Shown here: positions 1 to 62,230 of the stretch, piece after piece
Position numbering within the stretch: position 1 is the first letter of the stretch
Layout: every line of letters starts with the position of its first letter
Assembly (NCBI RefSeq): GCF_011064595.1
Contig: NZ_JAALJI010000004.1
Location: 1 to 64,000, forward strand
DNA: 64,000 nucleotides
DNA from: Paludisphaera soli
GTDB lineage: Bacteria > Planctomycetota > Planctomycetia > Isosphaerales > Isosphaeraceae
Reading direction: 5' to 3'
Notes under the pieces: generated by a model
The model's input: the letters and a program-made list of their open reading frames with translations, nothing else
What the model was told of the DNA's origin: nothing
Databases searched by the model: none
Program-made: the position numbers and the translations under genes

Positions 1-1425
1 ACGACGGACGACGCCTGGCCCTCGCTGGCGATCCGCCAGACTCCGGCCGTGGAAGCCTTCCCGCTGGACGTGCTGCCGCCGCCCGCCCGACACCTCGCCG
101 AAGAGGCTTCGCGGTCGATCGGATGCCCGGTCGACTTCGCCGCCGGGGCGACCCTTGCCGTCGCCGCCGGGGCGATCGGTCGATCCGTCTCGCTGCTCTT
201 GAAGCCGGGGTACTTCGCGTCGTCGTCCCTGTTCGTGGCCGTCATCGGCAAGGCGTCGTCCGGCAAGTCCCCGGCAGTGGAGCACGCCGCGAAGCCCGTC
301 TACGCGATCGACCGCGACCTGACCATCGAGCACGCCGCCGCCGAGCTTCGGTGGAAGGCGGAGTGCGAGGCGTTGGGCCCGAAGCCGAAGGCGTCGGAAC
401 TGCCCCCGCGCCCGCGACCGCGAAGGATCGACCTGGACAACATGACGCTGGAAAAGCTGCCCGGCCTCCTGAGCGACAACCCGCGCGGCCTCCTGATGGT
501 CCGCGACGAGCTGTCCGCACTCATGGGATCGTTCGGCCAGTTCAAGGGGGGGCGCGGGACCGACAAGGAGGACATCCTGTCGGCATGGTCCGGCAAGCGG
601 ATCATCAAGGATCGCGTCGGCGACGACAACGGCGTCCCCCTACGCTCGCCCCACCCCTGCCTGTCGATCGTCGGCGGGACCGTCCCGGCCAACCTGCCGG
701 GGTTCATCGACCCGGCCCGGCCCGGAGACGGGTTCATCGAGCGGTTCCTTTTCTGCTGCCCCGACCCGTTCGACCTGCCGGAAGACGAGGACGAGGACGG
801 CGTGTCCGAGATCGCGACGGCCGATTGGTCCCTCTTGGTCGGACGCCTCTGGGATCGTCCGATGGACGGTGAGAATCCGCAGGTCGCCTACATGACGCCC
901 GACGCCAGGAAGGCCCGGAAGCGGCTGCGGAAGGTCCACGCCCGCGAGGTGAACGATCCCGGCTTCAACCCCTCGCTGGAAGCCGCGTGGGGGAAGCTGT
1001 CCGCCTACGCCGATCGGCTGGCCCTGGTTCTTGGACTCATGGAGCATGCGGGCGACCCGACCGCCGATCCGCTGGCCGTCCCCGACATCGCCGAACGCCA
1101 CGTCGAGGACGCCTGGCGACTCACGACCTACTTCAAGAGCCACGCGCGGCGGGTGCACGCCGGGAGCGACCCGACAGGGGCCGGACCCGAAGCCTCCCAG
1201 GTCAATGCGATCGTCGAATGGCTTCGCGACGGCCGCCGCGAGACGTTCACCGAACGCGACGTGAGACGGGCGCGGCCGTGGATCACGGCCGATTCGCTGG
1301 CCAAAGCCCTGGCCCATCTCGCCAAAGCGAACGCTATCCGCTCACAAGAGACCCCGAGAGGTCCCGCCGGCCCCGGCCGCCCGTCGTCCCCGGTCTACAG
1401 CGTGAATCCCGACCTGCTGGCTTGA
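1..1425 (+). CDS. DUF3987 primase/helicase-like protein (5' truncated by window edge)
   Basis: The reading frame is open from base 1. The 16 codons before the first possible GTG (position 49) continue a typical family sequence, so the true start lies upstream. The protein has a P-loop-like motif GKASSGKS about residue 68 counted from the GTG, and an acidic Walker B-like LLMVRDE about residue 150. Both are hallmarks of DUF3987 proteins found in phages and integrative elements, often next to primases and presumed to act in element DNA replication. The C-terminal 60 residues look like a winged-helix-type region (inference). It is followed after 108 bases by a primase gene in the same direction. 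Confidence 0.8.
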   Translation, partial: TTDDAWPSLAIRQTPAVEAFPLDVLPPPARHLAEEASRSIGCPVDFAAGATLAVAAGAIGRSVSLLLKPGYFASSSLFVAVIGKASSGKSPAVEHAAKPVYAIDRDLTIEHAAAELRWKAECEALGPKPKASELPPRPRPRRIDLDNMTLEKLPGLLSDNPRGLLMVRDELSALMGSFGQFKGGRGTDKEDILSAWSGKRIIKDRVGDDNGVPLRSPHPCLSIVGGTVPANLPGFIDPARPGDGFIERFLFCCPDPFDLPEDEDEDGVSEIATADWSLLVGRLWDRPMDGENPQVAYMTPDARKARKRLRKVHAREVNDPGFNPSLEAAWGKLSAYADRLALVLGLMEHAGDPTADPLAVPDIAERHVEDAWRLTTYFKSHARRVHAGSDPTGAGPEASQVNAIVEWLRDGRRETFTERDVRRARPWITADSLAKALAHLAKANAIRSQETPRGPAGPGRPSSPVYSVNPDLLA

Positions 1426-1504
1426 CGAAATTGACGCAATTGCCAAAACCCCTGTTCGGACCGCATGGGGCTGGGGTTTCGTCAATTCCGTCAATTGCGT
1501 CGAG
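1421..1504. repeat. Large imperfect inverted repeat between DUF3987 and primase genes
   Basis: Arm 1421-1452 and arm 1473-1504 are inverted copies matching at 27 of 32 positions, with a 20-base spacer. Each arm contains the words GACGAAATTGACG or close variants (TTGACG-AATTGACG), so the unit also looks iteron-like. The stop codon of the upstream gene lies inside the left arm. It could be a folded mRNA signal, a terminator-like hairpin or a protein-binding or replication site. Confidence 0.75.
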
Positions 1505-1533: not shown

Positions 1534-2703
1534 ATGCCTTCCCCGATCGTCGTCCGCACCCCGACTGAACGTCTCGAATGGGTCGCCATCAAAGACCGTG
1601 TCGACCTGGTGGCCCTGGCCGTCGACCTACTCGGGGAGCCGCCCGGCCGTAGGGGAGGGGGCCGCCTGTGGTGGTGCTGCCCGTTCCACGACGACCACAA
1701 CCCGTCGTTCGTCGTCGATCCCGGCCGGGGCCGCTGGAAGTGCTTCGGATGCGGCGAACATGGGGACGCTGCATCCCTGGCGATGAGGGTGGGGCGATCG
1801 AGCTTCCCCGAGGCCGTCCGGCGGGTGGCGGAGCTGTCCGGCCTGACGCCCTGGGAGTCGAGCCCCCGAGCCCCGACCGCCCCGAGGCCCGCCAAGGCCC
1901 CCGCGAGGCCCCCGGAGCGTCCGTCCGGCCTTCCCCCGGCCGACGCACTGGCGTTGGTGGAAGACGCCGCCGAACGCCTTTGGAGTCCCGAGGGGGCGCG
2001 GACCCTTTCCTACCTGCACGGTCGCGGCCTGGCCGTTGAGACGATTCGCGCGGCGCGCCTGGGGTTCGTCGCTACTGCCCGCATCCCCAAGAAAGACGGC
2101 GACCGATCCTATCGAGCCTCGGGAGTCTCGATCCCCTGGTATGACGGCGATCGGCTGGCCCTGGTCAAGATCCGCCAGCCCGAAGGGGCGAAGCCGAAGT
2201 ACGTCGAAGCCTACCGCGACCGACCGAGAATCTACCCCGGCCCCGAGGCGATCCAATCCGGCCGTCCGCTGATCGTGGTCGAAGGCGAATTCGACGCCAT
2301 CTTGATGGGCCAGCAACTCCACGACGCGGCCTCCGTGGTCACGCTGGGGAGCGCGTCGTCGCGGCCCGACCCGAGCATCCTTGAAGCGATGCTGGCCGCG
2401 CCGCGATGGTTCATCGCCACCGACGCCGACGACGCGGGGGACGGGGCCGCGACCGGCTGGCCGTCCCGAGCAGTGCGGGTTCGGCCCCCCGAGGGATGCA
2501 ACGATTGGGGCGACGTTCACGCGAGCGGATTCGGCCGCATTCGCTACCTGTGGGGGCGGCACCTGCCCTTGTCCGTCGCATGGGAGGAACTGTCCGGCTG
2601 GCGCTGGGGACCGGCCCCGATCGAGCCGACCGAGGAAAACGACGACGGACCCGACGCCTACGCCGTGGCCGAACGCCTGGCGATCCAGTCCGAGGCCCCT
2701 TGA
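1534..2703 (+). CDS. DnaG-type primase with CHC2 zinc finger and Toprim domain
   Basis: This 389-residue protein has an N-terminal CHC2 zinc-binding domain: CCPFH followed by CFGC about 25 residues later, roughly residues 45-75. A primase core follows, then a Toprim domain near residues 225-300 with LIVVEGEFDAI (catalytic Glu) and the acidic ATDADDAG motif. It lacks the long DnaB-binding tail of chromosomal DnaG, which is usual for mobile-element primases. The start is set at 1534 because GGAGG at 1522-1526 lies seven bases upstream; an earlier in-frame ATG at 1465 sits inside the inverted repeat. The role, making primers for element replication, is inferred from the family and neighbours. 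Confidence 0.85.
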   Translation: MPSPIVVRTPTERLEWVAIKDRVDLVALAVDLLGEPPGRRGGGRLWWCCPFHDDHNPSFVVDPGRGRWKCFGCGEHGDAASLAMRVGRSSFPEAVRRVAELSGLTPWESSPRAPTAPRPAKAPARPPERPSGLPPADALALVEDAAERLWSPEGARTLSYLHGRGLAVETIRAARLGFVATARIPKKDGDRSYRASGVSIPWYDGDRLALVKIRQPEGAKPKYVEAYRDRPRIYPGPEAIQSGRPLIVVEGEFDAILMGQQLHDAASVVTLGSASSRPDPSILEAMLAAPRWFIATDADDAGDGAATGWPSRAVRVRPPEGCNDWGDVHASGFGRIRYLWGRHLPLSVAWEELSGWRWGPAPIEPTEENDDGPDAYAVAERLAIQSEAP

Positions 2704-2806: not shown

Positions 2807-4201
<1,395 letters not shown>

Positions 4202-54650: not shown

Positions 54651-54665
54651 CAAGGGAAAGCCTTC

Positions 54666-54768
54666 GGGTGCCATGGGTTCCCCGAACCCGTGGCCCGGCC
54701 GGGGATCTCGGCGACGGCTCCGGTGCGGCCCGACGCCGATCCACGGGTTCGGGGAACCCGTGGCACCC
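54666..54768. repeat. Inverted pair of hairpin elements, 28-base arms
   Basis: Arms 54666-54693 and 54741-54768 are inverted copies matching at 27 of 28 positions, 47 bases apart. Each arm contains its own hairpin, CCACGGGTTC-GGG-GAACCCGTGG. This is the structure of paired REP elements (BIME-like). Confidence 0.8.
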
Positions 54769-55096
54769 GAACTCGGGCCTCTCAAGCATCCCGCTCCGGT
54801 GGCGTCGAGTGAGGGGAGCCCGTTTCGCCCTTCTTTCGCGTGCCCGTCCGCTGCGTCGGCGAGGCTCCGGCCCGCAGCCTTGGAGAAACCGTGGCGCCCC
54901 GGAGCTTCGCCTGGACATAGGGGGGGACGGGCGTCGAGCCTGGATTCGCCTCACTTCGGATCGCCTCGCTTCGACCGCGCCAGGACCTTTGTCGAACGCC
55001 CCCCGCGCGGAGCATCCCTTAGGTAGAGGATGCATCGGGACGCCGGGACGCGCACCGGCCGCCGCGAATTCGCCACCCTCTTGGGAGTCCTGCGAC

Positions 55097-61942: not shown

Positions 61943-61993
61943 GCCGGCCTCGCGAGATTTCGAGCGAAGCCACGCGAGGGAAGAACGGACGGG

Positions 61994-62064
61994 GTGGTCC
62001 GGGCGGCCCGCCCGGACGTCGGAAATCCCCCGCCTTCGGCGTCCGGGCGGGCCGCCCGGACCAC
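61994..62064. repeat. Perfect 25-base inverted repeat after tilS
   Basis: Arms 61994-62018 and 62040-62064 are exact inverted copies around a 21-base spacer. Each arm holds the smaller palindrome GTCCGGGC-GGCCC-GCCCGGAC. It may end tilS transcription or be a REP pair; no T-tract follows. Confidence 0.85.
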
Positions 62065-62230
62065 GAGGAGCTGGAACGCCGTGCCACCCCAGATCTCCGA
62101 GGACGAGGGTGCCAGCCTCGGTCCCGTCTGAAGTTGACGGTCCCGGCGGTTTGGCATACCATCCGCGCGACTTCGGCCGGTCCCGCCGGGGGATGGAGTC
62201 CGTCCACGTCCCGAGAGAGGATCACCGATC

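Follow-up and report, generated by a model that had tools for sequence, protein, structure and literature searches.

Our data show that a 9-bp word stands in two facing tandem arrays, which pair along the arms of an inverted repeat, between a DUF3987 putative helicase gene and a primase gene at the end of a mobile element. We judge it probable, from comparisons of sequence, that this candidate site is the iteron-type replication origin of the tRNA-integrated element and is cognate to the adjacent helicase. Because facing rows of words recur at the same spot in many related elements while the words themselves change, the site is a likely start point for copying the element.

A mirrored 9-bp array between a DUF3987 gene and a primase gene

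The window analysed here is the first 64 kb of contig C132 (G000:C132:1-64000) in a genome of 7.97 Mb. Its left 4.2 kb form the right end of a mobile element, with a DUF3987 gene, a CHC2/Toprim primase gene, a tyrosine integrase gene and tRNA-Lys; the element's left part lies beyond the contig start, and the 5' end of the DUF3987 gene, encoding the N-terminus, is cut off. The features are as follows.

1 to 1425, plus strand: DUF3987 (YfjI-type) putative helicase gene, 5' end missing (PF13148, E 5.8e-50; PHROG 2373 'DNA helicase', E 2.2e-30)
1186 to 1422, plus strand: predicted C-terminal winged helix, residues 396-474, proposed iteron reader (AlphaFold2, Foldseek)
1423-1425, plus strand: DUF3987 stop codon TGA, inside the first iteron
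1421 to 1452, plus strand: left arm, with TTGACGAAA (1422-1430), TTGACGCAA (1431-1439) and TTGCCAAAA (1440-1448), then CCCC
1453 to 1472, no strand: loop of 20 bases, 13 of 20 G or C (65% GC), not AT-rich
1473 to 1504, minus strand: right arm, GGGG and then three inverted iterons, which read on the minus strand as TTGACGAAA (1477-1485), TTGACGGAA (1486-1494) and TCGACGCAA (1495-1503)
1534 to 2703, plus strand: CHC2 zinc-finger/Toprim primase gene (PF01807, E 1.8e-17; PF13155, E 0.00032)
2807 to 4195, plus strand: tyrosine integrase reading frame (PF00589, E 1.9e-12; PHROG 1)
4128 to 4201, minus strand: tRNA-Lys(CTT), at the element's right end and likely its integration target

The initial annotation had described a 32-base imperfect inverted repeat, built of low-GC words and placed between a DUF3987 protein and a primase, and each part of that description holds. 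The arms (1421-1452 and 1473-1504) agree at 27 of their 32 positions, on either side of the 20-base loop, and each consists of three contiguous 9-mers, TTGACGnAA, plus CCCC toward the loop. The 84 bases have a GC content of 53.6%, compared with 71.4% for the window. The left array starts in the last codons of the PF13148 gene, which ends at 1425 with a stop codon that belongs to the first 9-mer, and the repeat ends 30 bp 5' of the co-directional primase gene, whose ATG at 1534 has GGAGG a short way upstream. The five arm mismatches are at 1423, 1428, 1437, 1443 and 1445, two of them (1428 and 1437) at the free position n of the 9-mer.

Across 20 dinucleotide-shuffled versions of the 64 kb, the best 32-base inverted repeat (spacing 3-60) had 22-25 matches, and none of 200 local 1-kb shuffles reached 27. 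A default repeat finder did not pick up the repeat at 1421-1504. Two GC-rich inverted repeats in the window outscore the iteron repeat, and arm quality is not unique there. One of them (window 54660-54770, 30/32) has GGTGCCATGGGTTCCCCGAACCCGTGGC and its inverse around a GC-rich loop and is unlike the iteron repeat; the other (window 61985-62065, 28/32) consists of GTGGTCCGGGCGGCCCGCCCGGACG and its inverse.

Arrays recur at the 3' ends of Planctomycetota DUF3987 genes

PF13148 occurs in 80 of 392 sampled Planctomycetota genomes; VirE helicases, considered as a comparison set, were found in 1 of 149 genomes. We fetched 85 PF13148 hits, leaving out rows below 66 bits as well as the partial hit G409:C124 and the row of the window itself. 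Two hits (L077 and L127) have no stop codon in reach and were excluded, and the other 83 together with the window's own gene gave 84 genes with a readable stop. A run of at least seven matches at lag 9 within 200 bp of the DUF3987 stop was found in 36 of these 84 genes, compared with 9/83, 9/84, 7/78 and 6/53 control windows, and was absent by this criterion in 48. Lags of 7, 8, 10, 11 and 12 near the stop gave 5-7 of 84 each. When the set was thinned to 67 clusters (<50% identity), lag 9 was found in 30/67 versus 8/66, 9/67 and 6/62 (p 4e-5 to 1e-5 and 1e-4), and lag 18 was likewise raised (14/67).

The lag-9 excess extends to either side of the stop (22 and 19 of 84, with 2-8 in other bins) and therefore does not reflect codon repetition only. 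Inverted repeats scoring at least 14 were present in 10, 6 and 4 of 84 windows (centres at 0, -150 and +150 relative to the stop); seven other position bins had none. Arrays are plainly visible in, for example, L085, L158, L159, L160, L161, L120 and L123.

Short tandem-word hairpins are known from other bacterial intergenic regions, and the window itself holds two unrelated GC-rich hairpins, so that the repeat might have arisen by chance or be a dispersed intergenic repeat with no link to replication. We regard this as scarcely credible given the position-specific excess over controls, the held-out test described below and the lack of a second copy of the sequence in the genome. The exact 21-base core (TTGACGNAATTGACGNAATTG) is matched once within its own genome, and 44 further genomes of the family gave no match. 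Exact-word search was dropped as a test of conservation because the words change between elements. The initial annotation had proposed a search for the same repeat in other planctomycete elements: among the family genomes searched, the exact repeat was seen in its own genome only, and what recurs is the architecture of facing words, in the 36 DUF3987 genes above and at the primase loci described below.

In seven genes (L083, L108, L137, L145, L149, L157 and L167), the protein tail beyond the winged helix consists of tripeptide repeats. Tail repeats such as NSQNP/SVLSVDSV, GSGGSGG, GQKGQK and LSSLSSLSS are 9-base words read in frame. A different pattern is seen in L119, where dense, dispersed ACGGT words run through and past the DUF3987 tail, unlike the 9-mer arrays.

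Pairing is kept at related primase loci while the words change

The nearest primase relatives in public genomes (L002 and L003) carry different repeated words at the same place, and gave the first hint that conservation lies in the design rather than in the sequence; in L002, an AAA_25 helicase stands in place of DUF3987. A search of 44 relatives found the primase in 18 genomes. We took 13 element-type primase loci with upstream sequence, dropping L200, L212 and L213 at contig ends and seven locus-less places. Ten of the 13 (L195, L197, L198, L199, L201, L202, L205, L206, L207 and L208) have an inverted repeat scoring at least 11 in the 330 bp upstream of the primase match, and this score was reached in 4 of 68 control windows, one of them being the L203 repeat. 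Three DnaG-like control hits had no repeat at this threshold (scores 7.5, 10.0 and 9.5). At the three other loci, L196 has words (GGTTTTGAA) and no scoring hairpin, L203 has its repeat one window further upstream because the match starts inside the gene, and L204 has neither repeat nor words in the upstream stretch.

The locus from a congener (L195) is a homologous copy with 89% column identity over the compared stretch, in which the words have changed and the arms still pair. The initial annotation had staked its reading on the repeat being present at homologous loci with its pairing kept, and this is what the ten loci show, with altered words.

The gene upstream of the primase is DUF3987 in six loci and AAA_25 in six. 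In the sister elements L197, L201, L203, L205, L207 and L208, the AAA_25 helicase occupies the DUF3987 position, and lag runs of 8 or 10, not 9, are present in five of these six (L197, L201, L203, L205 and L207). Chromosomal dnaG upstream regions with TTGACAA words (L017, L027, L028 and L033) were set aside as promoter-like.

A shared word locates the repeat in held-out tests

Expectation-maximisation on 60 array segments from 45 loci gave the consensus TGACARAAN, with a score of 171 versus 116-128 in eight column-permuted nulls (6 restarts for the null versus 40 for the data). With the full matrix, the best tandem pairs of the 64 kb start at 1423 and 1432. A matrix trained without the window placed the best 9-spaced pair in the 64 kb, over both strands, inside the repeat.

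In a five-fold held-out test, the best pair lay at most 250 bp from the stop in 29 of 100 loci, with 9.7 expected (p 5e-8). Other spacings (7, 8, 10, 11 and 13) gave 17, 16, 20, 15 and 12 of 100; spacings 7, 8, 10 and 11 are raised as well, less strongly than 9. At the 13 primase loci, the held-out matrix placed the best pair in the upstream 330 bp in seven, with 1.1 expected; the best pairs of L202 and L204 do not resemble true words.

The stem resembles a DNA site

The initial annotation had offered an origin, an operator or an mRNA switch as possible functions, and had proposed folding the RNA as a check. The fold of 1415-1535 has an energy of -49.3 kcal/mol (z -3.19), matched by 1 of 200 shuffles. 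This stability, and the position of the hairpin across the helicase stop codon and ahead of the primase ribosome site, would suit an RNA element acting in the transcript as an attenuator, terminator, stability element or translation switch of a helicase-primase operon. We consider such a role very unlikely. In stems selected for RNA pairing, G-U mismatches should be tolerated and A-C mismatches avoided, and we counted 22 A-C to 20 G-U mismatches in 37 repeats scoring at least 12 from 92 loci, a coarse test as several of these are not clear word arrays, and 7 to 5 in the set of primase loci. No Rfam 15 family reached its gathering threshold (best E 0.068, 22 bits against a cut-off of 80), and no terminator-like site (GC-rich hairpin plus T-run) was found in 1200-1800. 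A hairpin also has no need of tandem direct words. A scan with the sigma-70 consensus detected no sigma-70-like promoter near the repeat. We favour a DNA site because there is no G-U excess, no Rfam match and no terminator-like or sigma-70-like site, and selection on the stems looks DNA-level.

A DNA site in this position could be an operator, at which DUF3987 or a regulator controls the primase and integrase genes while replication starts elsewhere. The location between two co-directional genes, just upstream of the primase start, fits this idea, inverted binding sites are usual for operators, and the scan that found no promoter was limited to the sigma-70 consensus. We nevertheless think an operator unlikely: three tandem copies per arm at a strict 9-bp spacing, and copies that lie within the coding tail 5' of the stop, suit an initiator array better, and the array recurs irrespective of what lies downstream, be it a primase, a regulator, an integrase or an unrelated gene. 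Among the functions first offered, the mRNA switch is disfavoured; the iteron-like words and their place in a replication module find support in the arrays that recur at other DUF3987 3' ends and upstream of homologous primases.

A predicted winged helix is the proposed reader of the 9-mers

AlphaFold2 predicts a helix-strand-helix-helix-strand-strand order in the last ~80 residues of the DUF3987 protein, a block with pLDDT ~80 except in the wing loop. The best Foldseek matches for this C-terminal block are mostly winged-helix regulators (probability 0.96-1.0), at modest E values (best 9.6e-3). The whole-protein model is poor (mean pLDDT 52.7) and was set aside for fold searches of the helicase part. 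Passages of Kazlauskas and colleagues (PMC5862659) describe DUF3987 as a predicted helicase of mobile-element replication with a C-terminal winged helix predicted to read the origin. We propose that the predicted C-terminal winged helix of DUF3987 reads the 9-mers.

We infer that DUF3987 binds and unwinds the array and that the array functions as the origin. After excision of the element, DUF3987 would bind the 9-mers through its winged helix, with one set of protomers per arm, and the facing arrays would orient two helicase assemblies head to head, perhaps with the aid of cruciform extrusion. The DNA would then be opened by the helicase, and the CHC2/Toprim primase encoded by the adjacent gene would lay the first primers.

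Arrays near DUF3987 genes of plasmids and phages

A further 17 DUF3987 genes, for the most part from other phyla, were taken from phages, plasmids and a single Clostridium contig. Nine of the 17 have a lag-9 run close to the stop, compared with 0/17 control windows, the positives being Streptomyces, Tsukamurella, Bartonella, two Legionella, Paracoccus and Bacteroides plasmids, a faecal phage and the Clostridium contig. Six had no array near the stop (T1, Plesiomonas phage phiP4-7, two E. coli YfjI plasmids, pNDM-CIT and MT836114); in Javan191 and its relative L170, GTGACAAAA-like words form an inverted repeat with no run of 7. Of four viral scans with DUF3987 proteins, three were empty and one gave seven close relatives.

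The Streptomyces record (Streptomyces sp. NBC_00562, L163) is a circular 18.5-kb molecule on which a primase-polymerase gene and DUF3987 are followed by a 300-bp gap, filled with TGACAGAAC in either orientation, and then by an HTH gene and an integrase; it is in effect the excised form of such an element. In the window, too, an integrase and an attachment site lie within 3 kb of the repeat, and AlpA/HTH and integrase genes directly follow some arrays. The words could accordingly be accessory recombination sites, such as arm sites for an excisionase or integrase, or another structural DNA site for transfer or packaging; we hold this to be highly improbable, as the arrays track the helicase gene rather than the integrase, and also occur in phages and plasmids without an adjacent annotated integrase (L165, L169, L178, L180 and L182).

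A Paracoccus versutus pTAV4 stretch (L179) has two copies of a mirrored GTAGCGGGT-type array downstream of its DUF3987 gene, ~250 bp from each other.

Comparison with known origins

Passages on staphylococcal systems state that SaPI Rep and SCC Cch2 act through a C-terminal domain on iterons just 3' of their own gene (PMC7581432), and that in PICIs the ori directly follows the initiator gene and has two iteron sets (PMC6092414). As far as these passages describe them, SaPI and PICI origins, and the putative origin at SCCmec Cch2, resemble our site, with its putative initiator, in having an array directly 3' of the initiator helicase gene; SaPI and PICI further share two sets of short iterons (3 + 3 nine-mers here) and a C-terminal DNA-binding domain on the helicase, here a predicted winged helix only. 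Our site differs in that the helicase is DUF3987 rather than Rep or Cch2, and in that its 9-mers form two mirror-image tandem arrays that pair along the arms. PICI iteron sets are described there as flanking an AT-rich region, whereas the 20-base spacer here is 65% GC.

The Sulfolobus plasmid pRN1 carries a stem-loop 3' of its winged-helix replication protein gene that, according to passages of two papers, is required for replication (PMC4234260, PMC3869888); in one of these, the authors could not recognise iterons by standard criteria, and the replication protein showed no specific binding (PMC4234260). In the sequence, we find that one arm of the pRN1 stem reads TGTCCATAG TGTCCA and the other its inverse, with two 9-bp units per arm, and that the pHEN7 stem likewise has two 9-bp-spaced words per arm. 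The stem regions of pRN2, pDL10 and BIP-1 contain no lag-9 run of 6, and the pRN1 stem is not among that plasmid's five best matrix hits. BIP-1, for which others proposed a pRN1-like stem-loop, was set aside, with no 9-bp array in the stretch examined. The pRN1 family, so far as described in those passages, thus shares with our element a stem-loop 3' of the gene for a replication protein that has a winged helix at its C-terminus (here predicted), and differs in having a fused primase-polymerase and SF3 helicase, where our element has a DUF3987 frame and a separate DnaG-type CHC2/Toprim primase, and in a loop of 58 bases rather than 20.

Phage P4 alpha is a multifunctional helicase-primase whose C-terminal winged helix binds origin repeats (as cited in a passage of PMC4234260); it is likened to our system by description, not sequence, and is one fused protein, whereas here helicase and primase are separate genes. 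For the PrimQH and All3500 primase families with DUF3987 domains, the relevant passages of PMC5862659 name no origin sequence, whereas here a candidate site is located. We found no reported origin for DUF3987 elements in the largely open-access literature searched.

It is possible, though we put it forward only tentatively and with some doubt, that one design (mirrored 9-bp arrays of about TGACARAA, 3' of an initiator gene and read by a winged helix) spans integrative elements, plasmids and phages of several phyla and is distantly shared with the archaeal pRN1 origin, with words drifting along with their reader and primase-linked AAA_25 helicases using 8- or 10-bp units. Counted against the origin reading are the 48/84 and 8/17 genes without a lag-9 run, the empty L204 locus, the loop that is not AT-rich and the other raised spacings, together with the position of the pRN1 stem outside the top five hits and the lack of a run in pRN2, pDL10 and BIP-1.

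DUF3987 proteins are common on mobile elements, and a cognate site that can be found from sequence would provide a testable initiator-origin pair for a domain of unknown function. Such a site would let the origins of integrated elements, plasmids and phages be called from sequence, would explain the odd tripeptide-repeat tails as iterons that the ribosome reads through, and would offer small replicons for planctomycetes and actinomycetes.

Related sequences elsewhere in the genome

An 87-bp block at 4089-4175, which takes in the 3' half of tRNA-Lys(CTT) together with its flank, is found again in identical form on contig C115 (L192, G000:C115:12164-15184), where it adjoins a truncated tRNA and a flank resembling the integrase end. 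This copy probably represents an attachment site, or else the end of another, related element. The same genome also contains, at a contig end, a second primase (L212, G000:C24:197186-198262) with 73% identity to the window's and one internal TGA, which probably marks a second, perhaps decayed, element.
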